Source: a virus
Direction: 5' to 3' (one strand)
DNA: 45,393 nt
Virus record (IMG/VR): IMGVR_UViG_3300022752_000123
Coordinates: 1-45,393 of that record
Made by a program: the position numbers and the translations under genes. Below are positions 1,983-33,148 of this stretch, in pieces. The notes below the pieces were generated by a model, which worked only from the letters and a program-made list of their open reading frames with translations, was not told where the DNA came from and made no database searches. Within the stretch, counting starts at the first letter, position 1. Each line of letters begins with the position of its first letter.

Positions 1983-2206
1983 TAGAATATTTCAAAGTTT
2001 TTCCAACTAAAATATTTTTCGTTTTCTTTTTTCTTAAACACCTCGTACAGGTAATTGTCTCTATCATAACTTCCCCGACTAACGTGCCAAGCTAAATAAT
2101 AGCTAACCCCGCAAATTCTTGCAGCCTCACGAATACTAACGCCAGACGTTAGTACCTTTTTAACTTCTATAATCTTTTGATCAGACACCCTTTTAAATTT
2201 TTTCAT
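1982..2206 (-). CDS. Small helix-turn-helix DNA-binding protein
   Basis: This encodes 74 residues. Residues about 22-44 (SGVSIREAARICGVSYYLAWHV) form a typical helix-turn-helix: a first helix with REAARI, a turn with CGVS and a recognition helix. It is preceded by a basic stretch and a helix around DQKIIEVKKVL, as in transposase-type or Mor-like HTH domains. It overlaps the end of dcm by 14 bases and is coupled to the next gene. It probably acts as a transcription regulator or DNA accessory factor; the target is unknown. Confidence 0.6.
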   Translation of the reverse strand: MKKFKRVSDQKIIEVKKVLTSGVSIREAARICGVSYYLAWHVSRGSYDRDNYLYEVFKKKENEKYFSWKNFEIF

Positions 2207-2954
2207 ACAATTCTATTGTTTTAAAAATTTGATAAACTACTTGTGGTACTATTGCGTTTCCTCCTGCTTTGATTGATTCCTTTCTCCATTTAGAAAAGGT
2301 AATAGAGTCCAATCTGTCGGAAAGCCCATCATCTCCATTACAAATTGGGGGGACAGTTGGGAAGGTTTCCCATTTTCTTGTGCCATTAAATGATTCAATT
2401 CGCTTCTCCTTGATGGCTCGTTTTGGGGCCTCTCTTTTTCCGTTCCCGTATTCCAACATCTCGCTGTTGGTGTTGGCAACAAACCAAATTCTGTCTCTTC
2501 TGTGGGGAGCGTTGACGCTTGCAGCTGGAATAAGAAACGATTGTACTTCATATCCTTCATTTTCCAAGTCAGTTTGCACTTCTTCGAATACCAACCCTCC
2601 ATTCCAACTAACAAGCCCACGAACATTTTCGCCCACAACCCAAGTCGGTTTGACCTCTCTAATAACTCGTAACATTTCAGGCCAAAGGTGTCTTTCATCT
2701 TCTTTTCCCAATCGCTTTCCTGCGGTTGAGTAGGGTTGGCAGGGGAATCCTCCTGTAAGAATGTCAATTTGGTTTGCATATTTTGTAAAATCTGATTTTG
2801 TAATATCGGTAAATAATTCGGCATCAGGCCAATAGTATTTAAGGACTTTTTGACCAAACTCATTCCATTCACAATGAAACTTGTTTTCCCATCCCATCCA
2901 TTCCGCTGCTAAGTCAAAACCCCCAATCCCGCTAAATAATGATCCGTGTGTCAT
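2193..2954 (-). CDS. dcm: DNA cytosine-5 methyltransferase
   Basis: The 253-residue enzyme would transfer a methyl group from SAM to C5 of cytosine in a specific DNA sequence. The family motifs are present in order: motif I FSGIGG (7-12), motif IV with the catalytic PCQ (Cys72), motif VI ENV (109-111), motif VIII HRRDR (151-155) and motif X GNAIVPQV (232-239). The segment between VIII and X is only about 75 residues, so the target-recognition domain is small and the enzyme is short for the family. It starts on a TAATG overlap with the upstream gene. Likely roles are protection from host restriction or marking of phage DNA. Most of its length also encodes a second protein in the +1 frame (2249-2872). 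Confidence 0.9.
   Translation of the reverse strand: MTHGSLFSGIGGFDLAAEWMGWENKFHCEWNEFGQKVLKYYWPDAELFTDITKSDFTKYANQIDILTGGFPCQPYSTAGKRLGKEDERHLWPEMLRVIREVKPTWVVGENVRGLVSWNGGLVFEEVQTDLENEGYEVQSFLIPAASVNAPHRRDRIWFVANTNSEMLEYGNGKREAPKRAIKEKRIESFNGTRKWETFPTVPPICNGDDGLSDRLDSITFSKWRKESIKAGGNAIVPQVVYQIFKTIELYEKI
2249..2872 (-). CDS. Second protein encoded inside dcm in the +1 frame
   Basis: A 207-codon open frame lies wholly inside dcm on the same strand, shifted by +1. It does not look like a random shadow: it carries segments I recall from stand-alone phage proteins found near dcm genes. These are the GWYSKKCKLTWK/KYNRFLFQL region (about 93-117), TEETEFGLLPTPTA (124-137) and MMGFPTDWTLLPF (181-193) near the end. 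The same DNA encodes Dcm motif VIII (NAPHRRDRIWFVA) and GLSDRLD in the other frame, so both readings look constrained. The true start is uncertain; the first about 60 residues are low in recognisable features. Function is unknown. A partner or specificity subunit of Dcm, or a product reached by frameshifting, are possibilities. Recognition of the family is from memory. Confidence 0.55.
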   Translation of the reverse strand: MNGMSLVKKSLNTIGLMPNYLPILQNQILQNMQTKLTFLQEDSPANPTQPQESDWEKKMKDTFGLKCYELLERSNRLGLWAKMFVGLLVGMEGWYSKKCKLTWKMKDMKYNRFLFQLQASTLPTEETEFGLLPTPTARCWNTGTEKERPQNEPSRRSELNHLMAQENGKPSQLSPQFVMEMMGFPTDWTLLPFLNGERNQSKQEETQ

Positions 2955-6352: not shown

Positions 6353-7102
6353 TTAAATAACCGAAACTCCTCTTTCTGATACTACTTTACAAGCTAATTC
6401 ATTTGCTTTTTGTATGGCTATTTTTATGTCGTGGGAAGTCATAAAATAGAAAGCCAATGCAGCTAAAAAAGTATCGCCTGCTCCTGATACATCAACTGTT
6501 GTTTTCTTGGTTATTGGAAAATGTTCGTTGTTGTAATATGATCCATCGCCTCCTTTAGTAATAATTATTTTCGTCTCGTAATCTTTGGAAAAACTTGCGT
6601 TTGTTGCAAATTCTGATTCATTCATTTTCACAAAATCAATCTGGTCTAAAATGACTGGCGTTAGCTTTTTCTTTGTGTCTAAAAATATAACAGCGTTTTC
6701 TTTTACTTCTTGGCAAATAAGATAAATATCATTTAAGCTTAAATATCCTTTGTTGTAATCGGATATAATTACGCAGTCGCTAATACTGATAATCTTTTTT
6801 AAATTATCCGAAAACTCTATAGGCTGAACTTTGTCATTCTCATCTATGCGAATGAAATAATGGTTTGACTTTTCGTCTACGTATCGTGTCTTTATTATGT
6901 CCCCCTTTGAAAAATGACCAATGACTGATGCCTTCTTTTCTATTAAGCTAAAAAGATTATTGTATACGTTTGCTGCCATCCCTAAGTTTTCTGTTTTCCT
7001 AATAGGCGTAAAAACAGGAACAGGTGCTTCTGGGCTTAGTCTTGCAACTTCCCCGTACACAAAAACATCTCTACATTTTTCTCCTAATACAAGAAAGTTC
7101 AT
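6353..7102 (-). CDS. PfkB-family sugar kinase, HldE N-terminal (heptose 7-phosphate kinase) type
   Basis: The 249-residue protein resembles the kinase half of HldE/RfaE, which phosphorylates D-glycero-D-manno-heptose 7-phosphate at C1. It has the family's N-terminal signature RLSPEAPVPV (21-30), the substrate-binding GMAANV (41-46), the NESE motif (161-164) and the catalytic/anion-hole motif DVSGAGDTF (204-212), where Asp210 would be the base. It is shorter than the usual kinase domain of about 315 residues but no catalytic motif is missing. In most bacteria this domain is fused to the nucleotidyltransferase; here that half is a separate gene at 8683-9084. A related PfkB substrate cannot be excluded. 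Confidence 0.8.
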   Translation of the reverse strand: MNFLVLGEKCRDVFVYGEVARLSPEAPVPVFTPIRKTENLGMAANVYNNLFSLIEKKASVIGHFSKGDIIKTRYVDEKSNHYFIRIDENDKVQPIEFSDNLKKIISISDCVIISDYNKGYLSLNDIYLICQEVKENAVIFLDTKKKLTPVILDQIDFVKMNESEFATNASFSKDYETKIIITKGGDGSYYNNEHFPITKKTTVDVSGAGDTFLAALAFYFMTSHDIKIAIQKANELACKVVSERGVSVI

Positions 7103-7912: not shown

Positions 7913-8686
7913 TTATCTTCTACAAAACGCTCCACAAGATTTTGCTTCTTTTTTATAAGCATCGTATAAGGACTTTACATCTTCAAACATTTCCGACTCA
8001 CATTCTATGGCTAATTGTTTTAAGCTTTTACCATTACCCATTATTGAGTAAAATTTTTTTCTTTGATCTTGTATCTTTTCTTCAAATTTTCTAACCTCTT
8101 CAAATTCGTTTTTATTTAAGTGATACATTGCCCTATATTCTTTTTCTGTTTTGAAAAAACACATTCTACAGCCACCCCGAAGCATATAAACCGGAAATTC
8201 TGGATGAAGTCCATTTATTTTGAGCAAGTCTTCGCAGTCATCCCTAGTTAAACCATCATCAATTAATGGGTATGTGTACTTTATATTTGATTTCATTTCC
8301 AGATTACCAGTCCTTCCTTGTTCGTCGTAATTAAATCCAATCAAAAGCTCACACTCTTCTTTGCTTAAAAAATCATCTATTGGTTTTATTTTAAAATAAT
8401 ATGTGCAAAATCTTCTTTGTTGAGATGGCATAAATTTAAGCGCTACAATATAGTCCTCCAAGCTATGGTAGACATCTCCCTTGTGTTTCATATCAGCCCT
8501 AAGTCTTACTAATTCAAAATCTCCCTTATGATATTCTTTTAGTTTTTGCTCTACGTAATTTATTCTTTCGTACATTTCTTCGTGTTCTGCTCCGGTGTCT
8601 ACCCATATAGCGGTTGCGCCTTTTCCGTATAAAAGACACATAGTTGTTGATTCAACCCCTCCGCTAAATGATATATATCTTTTCAT
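7913..8686 (-). CDS. PP-loop ATPase, PAPS-reductase/sulfotransferase-like
   Basis: This encodes 257 residues. The N-terminal SFSGGVESTT (6-15) is the PP-loop (SGGxDS-like, with Glu in place of Asp) that binds ATP pyrophosphate. RRFCTYYFKIKP is the Cys/Lys motif typical of phage PAPS-reductase-like proteins. Later Cys residues (RGGCRMCFF and CGAFCRR) could hold an iron-sulfur cluster or a zinc ion. Members of this superfamily adenylylate a substrate in sulfur or nucleic-acid modification (CysH, DndC and related proteins). No other Dnd genes are seen, so DNA phosphorothioation is not supported. It overlaps the nucleotidyltransferase end by four bases. Activity probably involves activation of a small molecule or of nucleic acid. 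Confidence 0.75.
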   Translation of the reverse strand: MKRYISFSGGVESTTMCLLYGKGATAIWVDTGAEHEEMYERINYVEQKLKEYHKGDFELVRLRADMKHKGDVYHSLEDYIVALKFMPSQQRRFCTYYFKIKPIDDFLSKEECELLIGFNYDEQGRTGNLEMKSNIKYTYPLIDDGLTRDDCEDLLKINGLHPEFPVYMLRGGCRMCFFKTEKEYRAMYHLNKNEFEEVRKFEEKIQDQRKKFYSIMGNGKSLKQLAIECESEMFEDVKSLYDAYKKEAKSCGAFCRR

Positions 8687-12285: not shown

Positions 12286-12391
12286 AAAATTGCGTAAGTT
12301 GGCGCAAATGATTACCACGAATTCCCCAGACACAATGAAAAAAGTCTACAGAAGACTTAAAAAAACTTGGAATGAAACCAAATCTAAGTAA
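12266..12391 (+). CDS. Very basic 41-aa protein
   Basis: The frame overlaps the ends of both neighbours: it starts 20 bases before the upstream stop and ends 20 bases into the fused glycosyltransferase gene. The sequence KKTAKKLRKLAQMI and VYRRLKKTWNETKSK has a charge pattern I recall in other Bacteroidota phages (ending -LYKRLKK-), which supports it as real. It would be helical and strongly positive, so nucleic-acid contact is possible. Confidence 0.5.
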   Translation: MRKKTAKKLRKLAQMITTNSPDTMKKVYRRLKKTWNETKSK

Positions 12392-13832
12392 CATTACTCT
12401 TATATGTGTTGATTGCGTAAACCACGGAGAAGCGGTAGCGGCTATAAGAAAAAGTATGGCCGAGTGCGACTTTGCATCTGTCAAGTTTATTACAGACAAG
12501 CCATTTGAGTTTGAGGGAATTGAAGTAATAAATATCCCGCCAATAAGGTCTAAGGAAGAGTATAGTCACTTTATGATTAAAGAGCTGTACAAGTATTTTA
12601 GTACAGACTATGTTCTTGTTATTCAGGCTGATGGTTATGTGCTGAACGGGAAGTCGTGGCTGCCAGAATTTTTGCATTACGATTACATAGGCGCACCGTG
12701 GACTTATCCCGATGGAAAAAATGTCGGTAACGGAGGATTTTCTATCAGGTCTAAAAAACTTCAATCAGCGCTTGCTCTTGATGATTTTATTGTTGCTACC
12801 GATCCCGAAGACCAAGCAATCGGTAGGCTTTACAGAGATTACTTAATAAAGTTTTATAAAATAACATACGCCCCAGAAGATTTAGCAGATAGATTTTCTT
12901 ACGAGTTAAGAGCGCCGATTTACGATACGTTTGGATTTCACGGAAAGTTTCATAAGCCATACCAGCGAACTGTTGTAATTAAAAGAATGGCGTCAATGGG
13001 TGATGTCATTTTGGTAGAACCTGTATTGAGATATTTTCACAACAAAGGATATAGAGTTGTCTTAGACACACTTGAGCAGTTTTATATGCTTTTTGTTAAC
13101 CACGACTTCCCCGTACATTTTTATAAAACAATAAATAAGAGGGTGCTTCATAACGCTGTTTACCACAACTTAGATATGTCTTACGAGTCTGTTCCTAAAC
13201 AGAATAGGCTATTAACCTATTACCAATTTTGCGGTATCAAAGACGGGGAAATAAAAAATCCTAAATTATCTGTAGGTTTTGATATTGATGAAGGGACAAG
13301 ACTTTTCCAAAAAGCTTGCATTATTCATCTTGAAGGAATTAGGCAAAGCGCAAGAGGTGTTTTTGGTGTGGACTGGGAAGATGTGGTGTCTAATTTACAA
13401 TCAAAAGGATACACCGTTTTTCAAGTGGGTAAAAGAAATGTTCCGTTTATAAAAAATGCCATTTATTTAAATACCGTAAATGAAAACTTTTTGTGTTATG
13501 CAGTAGCGAGTGCTACTCTTTTCATAGGAATTGATAGTGGTATTAGCCACATAGCATCAGCGTTTAACATTCCTTCAATTATATTTTTTGGAAATACTAA
13601 CCCAGAAATAGTTCACGTGGAACTTTCTAATAAAGTTATTCTTACAAATCATTCAGTCGATAACCCAATTTGTATGAAACCTTACTGTTGGCACGAACAG
13701 ATAGGGGTTGAAAGCGAACCTTGTTATATTGACGCACAACTTCCCCCTTGCGCAAAATACACAACAGAACAAGTTATTAATTCAATAAAAATAATAGAAG
13801 ATGCCAGCAGAGAGCAAAAAGATATTTCCTAA
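12372..13832 (+). CDS. Fused glycosyltransferase: DUF5672 domain + GT9 heptosyltransferase-like domain
   Basis: The 486-residue protein joins two transferases. Residues about 5-190 resemble DUF5672: VLVIQADGYVL (82-91) with the acidic donor site, YDYIGAPW (103-110) and VGNGGFSIRSK (118-128). From about 198 it resembles GT9 (ADP-heptose:LPS heptosyltransferases): VVIKRMASMGDVILVEPVLR (201-220) is the N-terminal signature. IGIDSGISHIASAFNIPSI (about 389-407) is the donor-binding motif with the conserved DSG and His. The two halves probably act in sequence on the same glycan. Together with the HldE-like genes on the other arm it suggests phage-directed heptose transfer. Acceptor unknown: host LPS or a virion protein. 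Confidence 0.75.
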   Translation: MKPNLSNITLICVDCVNHGEAVAAIRKSMAECDFASVKFITDKPFEFEGIEVINIPPIRSKEEYSHFMIKELYKYFSTDYVLVIQADGYVLNGKSWLPEFLHYDYIGAPWTYPDGKNVGNGGFSIRSKKLQSALALDDFIVATDPEDQAIGRLYRDYLIKFYKITYAPEDLADRFSYELRAPIYDTFGFHGKFHKPYQRTVVIKRMASMGDVILVEPVLRYFHNKGYRVVLDTLEQFYMLFVNHDFPVHFYKTINKRVLHNAVYHNLDMSYESVPKQNRLLTYYQFCGIKDGEIKNPKLSVGFDIDEGTRLFQKACIIHLEGIRQSARGVFGVDWEDVVSNLQSKGYTVFQVGKRNVPFIKNAIYLNTVNENFLCYAVASATLFIGIDSGISHIASAFNIPSIIFFGNTNPEIVHVELSNKVILTNHSVDNPICMKPYCWHEQIGVESEPCYIDAQLPPCAKYTTEQVINSIKIIEDASREQKDIS

Positions 13833-29092: not shown

Positions 29093-32000
29093 ATGGTTGA
29101 TGTAAAGCGTTTTTCTGGGGTAATGAATTTAGACGACAAGCCGGAAAACATACTCGGCCCCCAACATATTGATGCCCTAAACCTTCGTTTTTACGGAGGG
29201 CAAAACGGGCTTACTGCGGAAAACGTAAAAGGTAATTACATTATACCTAATTCACAACTTCCCGCTAACGGAACAAATATTTGCATAGGTTCTTATTATG
29301 ATAGAGTAAATCAGCTTATTTACTTTTTTAATTATAACAGTCAGGGAAATCACGGTATTTATACTTTAAATGTTAATACGGAAGCAATCACTAAACTTTT
29401 TTTGTGTAATACAGATAGTGTCGGAGATGTTCTTAATTTCAATGCAAACTATCCCGTTCACTCAGTTTCCTTAGTATATCGTGATCCGGGGCAAGGGAAT
29501 CTTTTGTACTGGACTGACGGGTACAATCCTCCGAAGTATCTAAATGTGGATACCGTATCTTCCCTCGCACCCTTCTCATCTGATATGCTAACAGCGGCAA
29601 AAAATGCTCCGCTAACGCCTCCGGTAGCAGAATATAAAAGCGATACAACGGTTACTACAAATAATTTAAGAAAGAAGTTATTTAGATTTTCTTATCGATG
29701 GGTATATGAAAACGGAGAAAAGTCAACATTTTCACCAATATCCGCCGTTCCTCTTCCCGTAAACGGATACAACCCTAACACTTCTAATAACGCAACCCAA
29801 AATAACTATATTGAAGTAGAGGTTTACTCTGGGGGAAATGATTGCAAAACAATAGAAATTGCAGGTCAAGTAAACATAAACAATACTTGGAGTGACTTTT
29901 TCACAATTGACAGCATTAATTTAGAGCAGTACCAATTACCTACTAATTCAAGTTTTGCTTATAATTTTTATAATAACGGAGCTTATGTAAATGTACCTGT
30001 AGAAGAAAGTGATTTATATTTTAGTTACCTACCAAACCTAGCAAATACGCTTGAGTTGCTTAACGGAAATACAATTATATACGGAGGAATTACCGAAGGT
30101 TATGATGCTATTGCTAGGGAAGATGTGGACGTCACACTTACAACGGGTGTAGGCAATCCTAATATACCAAGTATATCATTTTCTTATACTGGCCCTAATT
30201 CTTTTAATGTAATTATAGGCTCTACTATAACCGCAGGAGCTGCATATACTGTTTATTTTACTTACAATTCAGGTACTGCTGGAGATGCTTCTCCGAGAAA
30301 CGTAACTTACACTACAGTTGGCGGCGATAATATTGATGATGTAGTCGCTGGATTAAAGGCTTTGATACAGGGATCAAATATTTCTGTAGACGATTTCGGA
30401 ACATCAGGCGTTTTTAGAGTTTTTACATCAACATTTGCAGGAACAATTACCAATGTTGCGGTTAGCGTTTCTACTGTTGGAAGCGAAGTAGCGCAAGCTT
30501 CTTGGAAGTGGAGCTGCCCTCAAAGACTTGGATTAGTATATTTCGATGAGTTTGGCAAAACAAATGGAGTAGTTTCTTTTGTTTCTGATTCTGACATTGA
30601 TACAACTGATTTTGCGGTTACAACACCTTTGTTTAGCGTATCGTCAAATGTTCCCCAAGTTCCATTTATAGCAGCATCAATAAACCACACCCCTCCTGAA
30701 TGGGCGGTAGCTTATCAATGGGTGCGCGCTGACTTAAAGCCTACAAGTTTTATTTATTGGGTAACAAATGATTTCTTAGATCCCGGAGACGGTTTTTTAT
30801 ATTTCTGTATTCAGAATTTAACGTACCAGCAAACGCAAAACACTGGTTTTGTTCCTTCGTATGAATTTGCGGAAGGGGATAGGGTTAGAGTAATTGCCGC
30901 TTATACTGGGGGTAATTTCGTGCCTTATGTAAACGGTTCTGGCGCGCCTCTTCAGCTTGATATGGAAATTTTGGGAACCGCTCAAAAGGCTATGACGGCC
31001 CCAAATAGCGGAAATGGAATTTTTTTAAAAGTTACAAAGCCGTCAACGCTGCCTACATCTTTTACAGATATTACAAAGCTTATAGAGATATACACTCCAA
31101 AGGCTGTTGTTTCTGACGAAAGTCAATTCTTTTTTGAGTTTGGTCAAAAGTATGATATCTACACTTCCGCAGGAGTAAGATACCACAGAGGACAAACAGG
31201 AGACCAGACAGCAACTAATCCAGCTACTTTCCAATGGTTTGAGGGAGATATTTATTACAGAGAAAGAGGTTGGTTTATAAGCAACGTAGCTACTTCTGTT
31301 ACGTCTGAATATTTTATGGACGCTAATTACAATGATTACTTCCCTAGCGCTGTAAACTCAAACGGAAGAACTTGGACTATTAATCCTGATGCGCAAACTA
31401 TCTATAATCAAGCGATGGTTCGCTGGGGTGGTCAATACGAACAGGGAACGGACGTAAATAATCTTAATATATTTAGACCAGCAGATTTTGATGAGGCGGA
31501 TAGGTCAAAGGGAGCGATACAGAGATTAATGGTTGAGGATAGGATTTTATATGTTTATCAACAGCGAGGCGTAGGAATGTATGGTATCTATGCTAAATAC
31601 GTTCAAGATAATGCTGGTCAAGCTATTTTAACCACTACCAATGCTATTATTACAACCAATAATATAAGGTATTTGGTGGGAAATTACGGACTTGGCGATC
31701 AGCCTTGCAGTTTGGTTAGAGGTAAAAATGTCCATTATTTTGTAGATCCAGTTAGAGGTTATCAAGTAAGAAGAGCAACCGATGGACTTACTCCAATATC
31801 AGAGCTTTATAAGGGGCAATTTTATATAAGAGATTTAATTACTCCGTATAATAAAAATTACGAAACTACAAATCTTGTAAAGTCCAAAATACTTGGCACG
31901 TACAATTTTTTTGATGAAGAATATGTTTGTTCTTTAGAAGGTGGAGACTTGTATCCGTCTAATAGACTGTCAATCGTTGACAATGGAGTTATTACTAATG

Positions 32001-33148
32001 GGGATATTAATACACCTTCTACTTTATATACTCCTTTTTCTGGCAATACAGGGCCGTTTACGTTTATTGTTTCTTTTGATGGGACTCCTCTAACCGGAGA
32101 TGTAGTGCATTTTATTCTTAGGTTAAATTATGGCCCAGCTATTGACTTCCCTATTGTTGTTTTAGCAGGATGGACTATAACAGATATTATTAATGCAGCG
32201 GTAGCCGCTATTAACCCTTCGGGACAATTTAGCGCAACTTCAACTACTTACGGAGGATTTCCCGCTATCCAATTTGGTGCTGATGTTGCGGGAACTGTTA
32301 TTACAGGGGAAAGTTCTATAGAGTGGCCTGCCGTTATTAGTACATTTACGGGAACTCCTCAAACGGGGGACGAGGTAACTATTAGTGTTTCCGCAGATCC
32401 GCCATCGCCACCACTTCCCTATACAAACTTCACATATACTTTCGGAGCAGGGAATACTATTAACGATATGATTACGTCCCTTGTTGCAACTATTAATGCG
32501 GGAGGTAATTTTACAGCGACAGCAGTAACCTATAATGGCAATCCCGGATTTACGGTAAGAAAGCTTACTACAAGTTATATCTACGGAGGTTCTTCATTGT
32601 CGCTAGAAGCCTTAAGCACGATTTCCCCCTACACATTCTCCTTCAATGAGTTACGAAACGGATACACTTCCTTTTTTAGCTATTACCCCGAATGGATGGA
32701 TAACGCTCAAGAGCTTATTTACACTTGGAAAAACGGAGAGCTTTACAAGCACGACAACACGACAAACTATTGTAACTTTTACGGAACCCAATCTGCGGCT
32801 TACGTAACCTGTGTATTTAATCCAGCTATCCACGTCAAGAAGTCTTGGAATAGCCTAATGGAGATAGCTGACACTATTTGGATAGTTCCTAGTATGTACA
32901 CTAATACTTACTCTTACGGAACAACAAAACAGCAAAGTAGCCTAGTAGAAGCCGAGTTCCAACTGCTAGAAGGAAACCCTTCGGCAGCTATAAAAAGAGA
33001 TGCTAATTCAAGTGGAGGAAAGATAAACGGTAACTTTATGAAAGGAAATTGGTTAGTTGTAAAATTTCAGAAAACAAATGCAAATAATTTGGTAAATTTG
33101 AGTGAAGTTTCAGCTCGGTTTACAGATAGTCCATTAACTGTGAAATAA
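29093..33148 (+). CDS. Tail-tubular B-like (tail hub/stabilisation) protein with inserted domains
   Basis: The 1351-residue protein resembles the T7 gp12 / P22 gp10 type nozzle. The N-terminus FSGVMNLDDKPENILGPQHI and the repeated Tyr/Asn-rich beta-propeller-like strands (IYFFNYNSQGNHGIYTLNVN, LLYWTDGYNPPKYLNV) form the body. Three similar small beta domains are inserted, near 30140-30490, 32040-32320 and 32330-32610. They share the pattern G-T/S-P-x-x-GD-x-V, then a helix TI-x-D-I-I-x-x-x-V-A-x-I-N, then F-x-A-x-x-x-x-x-G-x-P-x-F-x-V. Such domains may contact the host surface. The family body is probably correct; the function of the insertions is inference. Confidence 0.65.
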   Translation: MVDVKRFSGVMNLDDKPENILGPQHIDALNLRFYGGQNGLTAENVKGNYIIPNSQLPANGTNICIGSYYDRVNQLIYFFNYNSQGNHGIYTLNVNTEAITKLFLCNTDSVGDVLNFNANYPVHSVSLVYRDPGQGNLLYWTDGYNPPKYLNVDTVSSLAPFSSDMLTAAKNAPLTPPVAEYKSDTTVTTNNLRKKLFRFSYRWVYENGEKSTFSPISAVPLPVNGYNPNTSNNATQNNYIEVEVYSGGNDCKTIEIAGQVNINNTWSDFFTIDSINLEQYQLPTNSSFAYNFYNNGAYVNVPVEESDLYFSYLPNLANTLELLNGNTIIYGGITEGYDAIAREDVDVTLTTGVGNPNIPSISFSYTGPNSFNVIIGSTITAGAAYTVYFTYNSGTAGDASPRNVTYTTVGGDNIDDVVAGLKALIQGSNISVDDFGTSGVFRVFTSTFAGTITNVAVSVSTVGSEVAQASWKWSCPQRLGLVYFDEFGKTNGVVSFVSDSDIDTTDFAVTTPLFSVSSNVPQVPFIAASINHTPPEWAVAYQWVRADLKPTSFIYWVTNDFLDPGDGFLYFCIQNLTYQQTQNTGFVPSYEFAEGDRVRVIAAYTGGNFVPYVNGSGAPLQLDMEILGTAQKAMTAPNSGNGIFLKVTKPSTLPTSFTDITKLIEIYTPKAVVSDESQFFFEFGQKYDIYTSAGVRYHRGQTGDQTATNPATFQWFEGDIYYRERGWFISNVATSVTSEYFMDANYNDYFPSAVNSNGRTWTINPDAQTIYNQAMVRWGGQYEQGTDVNNLNIFRPADFDEADRSKGAIQRLMVEDRILYVYQQRGVGMYGIYAKYVQDNAGQAILTTTNAIITTNNIRYLVGNYGLGDQPCSLVRGKNVHYFVDPVRGYQVRRATDGLTPISELYKGQFYIRDLITPYNKNYETTNLVKSKILGTYNFFDEEYVCSLEGGDLYPSNRLSIVDNGVITNGDINTPSTLYTPFSGNTGPFTFIVSFDGTPLTGDVVHFILRLNYGPAIDFPIVVLAGWTITDIINAAVAAINPSGQFSATSTTYGGFPAIQFGADVAGTVITGESSIEWPAVISTFTGTPQTGDEVTISVSADPPSPPLPYTNFTYTFGAGNTINDMITSLVATINAGGNFTATAVTYNGNPGFTVRKLTTSYIYGGSSLSLEALSTISPYTFSFNELRNGYTSFFSYYPEWMDNAQELIYTWKNGELYKHDNTTNYCNFYGTQSAAYVTCVFNPAIHVKKSWNSLMEIADTIWIVPSMYTNTYSYGTTKQQSSLVEAEFQLLEGNPSAAIKRDANSSGGKINGNFMKGNWLVVKFQKTNANNLVNLSEVSARFTDSPLTVK

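Follow-up and report, generated by a model that had tools for sequence, protein, structure and literature searches.

A phage C5-cytosine methyltransferase gene whose two overlapping reading frames probably encode the two halves of one enzyme

The DNA analysed here, the window, spans positions 1 to 45,393 of the virus record IMGVR_UViG_3300022752_000123, a length of 45,393 nucleotides. Its minus strand carries dcm, a gene for a C5-cytosine methyltransferase, and inside dcm the +1 frame is open as well. This raises the question of whether one stretch of DNA is used to write two proteins and, if so, what the second one does. The answer that we hold with good confidence is that the locus encodes a C5-methyltransferase made of two subunits, as in M.EcoHK31I, with both halves encoded by one DNA stretch. 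Here, frame 0 would give alpha, the catalytic large domain with motifs I–VIII and X, while the +1 frame, read from its own ATG within alpha, would give beta with the C-terminal motif IX. Beta probably also holds much of the DNA-reading small domain, and together the two chains most likely make up a single methyltransferase with which the phage DNA is marked. Beta would accordingly be translated, would form a heterodimer with alpha and would be needed for activity or specificity, and the enzyme would protect the phage from host restriction. A partner of the methyltransferase was among the roles considered for the second protein in the original prediction, made from the sequence of this locus, and it is the role that fits best.

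The two genes are arranged as follows:
2193–2954, minus strand: dcm (alpha), C5-cytosine methyltransferase of 253 amino acids, with motifs I–VIII and X and without motif IX
2249–2779, minus strand: beta, overlapping gene in the +1 frame, ATG at 2779, stop at 2249–2251, 176 amino acids, PHROG 1008 family

The 207-codon frame originally described within dcm is real: it is the open reading frame (ORF) at 2249–2872, minus strand, which lies in the +1 frame inside dcm, on the same strand, and is counted from a GTG. The two pairs of Dcm and +1 peptides quoted from it were also exact. The +1 frame of dcm is open upstream to about 2908. The GTG at 2872 was assigned mechanically and is probably not the real start of beta, as the alignments of the homologues begin at the ATG at 2779 (MQTKLTFLQED...); the likely product therefore has 176 amino acids and lies wholly within dcm. 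This product matches PHROG 1008 (E 2e-19), and searches with it against Pfam and NCBIfam returned nothing reliable. Dcm matches PF00145 with an E-value of 5e-46, over profile positions 2–189 of 324.

The length of the second frame was compared with that in synonymous-codon shuffles, which preserve both the Dcm protein and its codon usage. The longest +1 stretch of the window dcm runs to 219 codons; 300 shuffles averaged 77, and none of them reached 219. The corresponding values for the +2 frame are 50 codons and 36. The comparison was extended to 89 loci: the window, 80 loci fetched by Dcm alone and eight phages found via the +1 protein. At p<0.01, 83 of the 89 had a +1 stretch longer than in the shuffles, and none had such a +2 stretch.

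In a +1 overlap, third codon positions of Dcm coincide with second positions in the partner frame, and changes silent in Dcm therefore alter the other protein. Constraint was measured as differences at fourfold-degenerate Dcm sites, at conserved residues, in the overlap and in the N- and C-terminal flanks of the same gene. For the window group, the differences were 0.394 in the overlap versus 0.651 (N-flank) and 0.654 (C-flank); for the K1-like group, 0.474 versus 0.686 and 0.690; and for the Paenibacillus/Lactobacillus-like group, 0.346 versus 0.686 and 0.694. Disjoint pairs gave 0.240 in the overlap versus 0.504 in the flanks for the window group (37 of 38 pairs lower inside), 0.305 versus 0.456 for the K1-like group (24 of 30) and 0.179 versus 0.393 for the Paenibacillus/Lactobacillus-like group (23 of 25). 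Fourfold sites in the overlap change at about half to two-thirds of the flank rate. The excess of +1 conservation over the shuffles peaks at LTWK, FQLxPS, LLPTPTA and LNPxxxxxMGFPxxW, and in the window group it is nearly nil in the non-overlapping N-terminal part of dcm. Both frames are under purifying selection and the +1 ORF is not a product of chance; the ORF-length and fourfold-site tests bear out what had been proposed from the sequence of this one locus.

What, then, do the two proteins contain? The landmarks of alpha, all on the minus strand, are:
2736–2744, minus strand: Dcm motif IV, PCQ with the catalytic Cys, residues 71–73, invariant alignment columns
2622–2630, minus strand: Dcm motif VI, ENV, residues 109–111, E109 and N110 invariant
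2490–2504, minus strand: Dcm motif VIII, HRRDR, residues 151–155, H151, R153 and R155 invariant
2310–2468, minus strand: Dcm residues 163–215, the position of the small, DNA-reading domain in other C5-methyltransferases, unstructured in the model
2244–2261, minus strand: Dcm motif X, GNAIVP, residues 232–237, G232, N233 and P237 invariant

Alpha has the features of a C5-methyltransferase, namely motifs I, IV, VI, VIII and X together with the large-domain fold. The AlphaFold2 model shows a complete large domain, with a predicted local distance difference test (pLDDT) score of 82.5 and a predicted template modelling (pTM) score of 0.78, and its top structural matches in the PDB are M.HhaI, covering about 165 of 327 residues. 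The pLDDT of residues 163–215 is about 47–62. The profile of the Dcm-frame family aligns to M.HhaI 13–176, which corresponds to motifs I–VIII, and stops there. M.HhaI has its motif IX at residues 272–293 (RKLHPRECARVMGYPDSY...); the window alpha has no motif IX in frame, and its model shows no small domain in that chain.

Beta has three landmarks:
2510–2578, minus strand: beta hairpin CKLTWKM...RFLFQLQAS, beta residues 68–90, conserved and the best-modelled part
2462–2482, minus strand: LLPTPTA block, beta residues 100–106, on the same bases as Dcm just past motif VIII
2306–2356, minus strand: candidate motif IX equivalent LSPQFVMEMMGFPTDWT, beta residues 142–158, from profile alignment

The hairpin has a pLDDT of about 85, and W72, L70 and L86 are conserved at 99%, 93% and 92%, respectively. 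The C-terminal sequence of the +1 proteins is L[NS]P-x5-[LM]MG[FY]P-x2-W. A profile of this ending aligns over 19 columns, free of gaps, with motif IX of ordinary C5-methyltransferases (consensus LTxREcARLqGFPDdw). The score is 24.3, which was reached by none of 60 column shuffles (maximum 20.6). When the profile of the whole +1 family is used, the sole region that aligns to ordinary C5-methyltransferases is the same motif IX, over 22 columns. Ordinary C5-methyltransferases were drawn for comparison from genomes that also carry the overlapping kind. Several have motif IX in frame as RRLTPRECARLMGF, a search of their +1 frames found no IX-like motif, and their +1 ORFs resemble the shuffles, with a few borderline cases (p 0.01–0.03) among about 24. 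Overlapping and ordinary dcm genes therefore place motif IX in different frames. By this alignment, the C-terminal part of beta looks like a displaced piece of a C5-methyltransferase rather than a new invention. The earlier proposal that the second protein was born by overprinting thus has to be amended for the C-terminus and may still hold for the N-terminal half. In long homologues, including L005 and L007, the +1 protein has several copies of the LLPTPxA unit, none of which interrupts the Dcm frame, and this repeat region varies strongly in length in both frames.

The two frames also travel together. An IX-like motif, M[GA][FYLW]xxx[WY], lies within the longest +1 stretch in 309 of 354 loci, nearly all of which have motif X in the Dcm frame; among the loci lacking it, several lie on truncated contigs or narrowly fail to fit the pattern. 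As about 335 of the 354 were fetched by Dcm queries, the +1 frame had no part in the choice of most loci. Because the relatives were picked for their similarity to a small number of queries and not at random, the frequencies describe this Dcm subfamily and not all C5-methyltransferases. The 79 dcm relatives analysed from bacterial genomes carry, without exception, a +1 ORF of 212 codons or more; ORF length discriminates poorly at high G+C, but the IX-like motif is present in these relatives too. A scan of bacterial genomes with a single Enterobacter alpha gave no matches, and an alignment of alphas used as the query found relatives. A pattern search with the beta seed alignment was unworkable, since that alignment is too divergent.

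In the reverse direction, searching with the +1 product does yield homologues, and these lie across dcm in the +1 frame, which is what the original prediction had proposed to look for. At each of 80 loci fetched with the +1 protein, the other frame encodes a Dcm that has both PCQ and motif X, and no free-standing copy of beta was found among them. The statement that such proteins are sometimes separate genes is not supported, as all 80 have dcm and the copies annotated in their own right, LILY_63 and K1G ORF30, lie inside it. The pair occurs in phages of Bacteroides, Porphyromonas, Lactobacillus, Paenibacillus, E. coli, Salmonella, Pseudomonas and Mycobacterium, on plasmids of Leptospira and Leptolyngbya and in many bacterial genomes. 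Counting phages, plasmids and genomes, the taxa include Bacteroidota, Bacillota, Pseudomonadota, Actinomycetota (a mycobacteriophage), Spirochaetota, Cyanobacteriota and others.

The overlap is thus seen in hundreds of phages and bacteria, and gene annotation usually misses it, giving either one methyltransferase or two unrelated entries. Beta is annotated as LILY_63, "g62 internal gene", in phage Lily, as "Mte8-like protein" in K1ind1 and as its own coding sequence, ORF30, inside dcm in K1G. For Pseudomonas phage PMG1 (L099), the +1 protein alone is annotated and the open Dcm frame that covers it has no annotated gene. In two RefSeq E. coli regions that were inspected, the annotated proteins are of the Dcm frame only. 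DNA related to the K1ind1 dcm is present in 68 of 5426 E. coli genomes, none of which covers 80% of that gene.

Several points weigh against the two-subunit reading. The shuffle tests ignore shared ancestry, which the comparison with same-gene flanks does control for. The motif IX match is short (19–22 columns); a PDB sequence search with beta gave chance matches alone, with motif IX not significant; and the hhalign E-value of 5e-4 rests on a single template, with a probability of only 12–32%. The AlphaFold2 model of beta is weak (pLDDT 66, pTM 0.31), and Foldseek found no known fold for it. Given this weak model and the lack of a fold match, a role for beta as the recognition domain is a guess, and its small-domain content beyond motif IX is conjectural. 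In the window group there is no Shine-Dalgarno signal for beta, and dcm itself is without one too.

Beta could be a real overlapping gene and yet no half of an enzyme, its product acting apart as a regulator or inhibitor, either of the methyltransferase or of host restriction. The N-terminal half of beta, which has no recognisable relation to C5-methyltransferases, the brevity of the motif IX match and the lack of a matching fold would all suit such a protein. However, alpha is without motif IX and without a modelled small domain, the sole part of beta that aligns to known enzymes is exactly the motif that alpha is missing, and beta was never found without alpha in the 80 loci fetched with it. 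A separate regulator is therefore unlikely, and the two-subunit enzyme is preferred.

How would beta be started? The Leptospira-like branch (L204–L278) begins with NTGAATGAG, in which dcm starts with ATG, TTG or GTG and the ATG of the +1 frame follows 4 nucleotides later. In this double start (NTGAATG, NTGAATGAGTTGGC), the downstream ATG is nearly invariant and the dcm start codon varies. The beta ATG is present in 92% of this branch versus 47% expected from the shuffles, and the +1 frame spans nearly the whole length of dcm. Further support came from the Paenibacillus/Lactobacillus-like branch, where Shine-Dalgarno pairing upstream of the +1 ATG averages -6.2 kcal/mol versus -3.9 in the shuffles. 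As the +1 ATG codons and Shine-Dalgarno sites are kept in some branches, separate initiation of beta at its own internal codon appears better supported than frameshifting.

The original prediction had allowed for the second frame being reached by +1 frameshifting, and the +1 product would then be an extension of Dcm, made by ribosomal frameshifting near LPTPTA. In six loci (L253, L254, L257, L292, L353 and L356), the N-terminal part of Dcm does run into the motif IX frame. But the conservation of beta reaches far upstream of where such a shift could occur, in one branch beta starts 4 nucleotides past the dcm start, ATG codons and Shine-Dalgarno sites are kept beyond codon-shuffle expectation, and L292 differs by a single indel from relatives that are 99.9% identical, a difference suggestive of a lesion or an error. 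Frameshifting is thus very improbable. The six may be broken genes, assembly errors or true fusions of alpha with motif IX; all lose motif X in that frame. L353 and L356 look rearranged. In view of the L292 indel, the rearranged look of L353/L356 and the loss of motif X, the in-frame loci were not used as evidence. In the Leptospira-like alphas, a loose motif IX pattern gave false in-frame matches (e.g. MGFDAEW near motif VIII), and in-frame counts there were discounted.

That the +1 frame encodes nothing and is a by-product of constraint on the Dcm codons and protein draws on the +1 similarity that a conserved Dcm alone produces, with shuffled alignments reaching 21–32% column identity. This idea is already refuted by the shuffle and fourfold-site tests and carries next to no weight: fourfold sites are constrained in the overlap only, the ORF is longer than in shuffles, the +1 conservation is localised and ordinary C5-methyltransferases have no such frame. 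A DNA or RNA element inside dcm would by itself fit the lowered synonymous change, but it is scarcely credible for a constraint that spans some 500–900 nucleotides, follows the +1 codons and stops, and involves the same +1 residues across phyla.

In M.EcoHK31I, beta has about 176 amino acids and is encoded in another frame that overlaps alpha. The enzyme (YGGCCR) consists of two polypeptides, the large one with motifs I–VIII and X, and with motif IX on the small one only (PMC3404938). The window pair resembles it in that alpha has motifs I–VIII and X and that motif IX, by a short profile match, is on the small protein; this likeness is one of motif layout. The predicted target recognition domain of M.EcoHK31I was placed in the large subunit (PMC3404938); the window alpha, by contrast, has just about 50 residues between motifs VIII and X, and these are unstructured. 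In addition, M.EcoHK31I is part of a restriction-modification system, whereas the window pair is phage-borne. M.AquI (CYCGRG) is a natural two-subunit, split C5-methyltransferase that also has motif IX on the small subunit (PMC3404938); unlike in M.AquI, motif X of the window pair stays on alpha. The ShiLan element is an out-of-frame HNH endonuclease, a mobile insertion in actinophage methylase genes (PMC11855218). It shares with beta a second protein read out of frame within a phage methylase gene; in contrast to ShiLan, beta extends over the conserved body of dcm and occurs in most relatives, and neither an HNH domain nor any other reliable Pfam domain was detected in it.

PHROG 1008 ("DNA methyltransferase") is the same protein family as beta, as eight of eight seed members match (best 6e-44), and the Kagunavirus "Mte8-like protein" and the "g62 internal gene" LILY_63 have the same nested position as the window beta. 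These three are names without a function. The papers searched state neither a motif IX role nor dual-frame constraint for PHROG 1008, Mte8-like protein or LILY_63, and no literature on this pair beyond M.EcoHK31I was found among the open-access papers searched. New here are the breadth across phyla, the obligate overlap and the NTGAATG double start in one branch. It is conceivable, at somewhat under even chances, that a single ancestral event moved the part with the small domain and motif IX of a C5-methyltransferase into the +1 frame of the same gene. The result would be an enzyme of two obligate partners written at one locus, which later spread among phages of several bacterial phyla and in which hundreds of codons have remained doubly coding, with beta and not alpha setting the target.

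Elsewhere in the window, a 1351-amino acid protein at 29093–33148 (plus strand) hits PF25731, the muzzle protein of crAssvirus, with E 2e-13, which suggests a possible relationship between the phage and the crAss-like group. The window also carries the following genes:
6353–7102, minus strand: PfkB-family kinase, phage-borne
7913–8686, minus strand: PAPS-reductase-like protein, phage-borne
12372–13832, plus strand: DUF5672 and glycosyltransferase-9 protein, phage-borne

If the two-subunit reading of dcm and beta is true, few of the long overlaps known between genes on the same strand would be as widespread. PHROG 1008, an unexplained phage protein family, would gain a testable role, and a phage Dcm that is expressed alone may yield an inactive enzyme. 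The family would also offer hundreds of natural cases for the study of how one stretch of DNA satisfies two protein folds.
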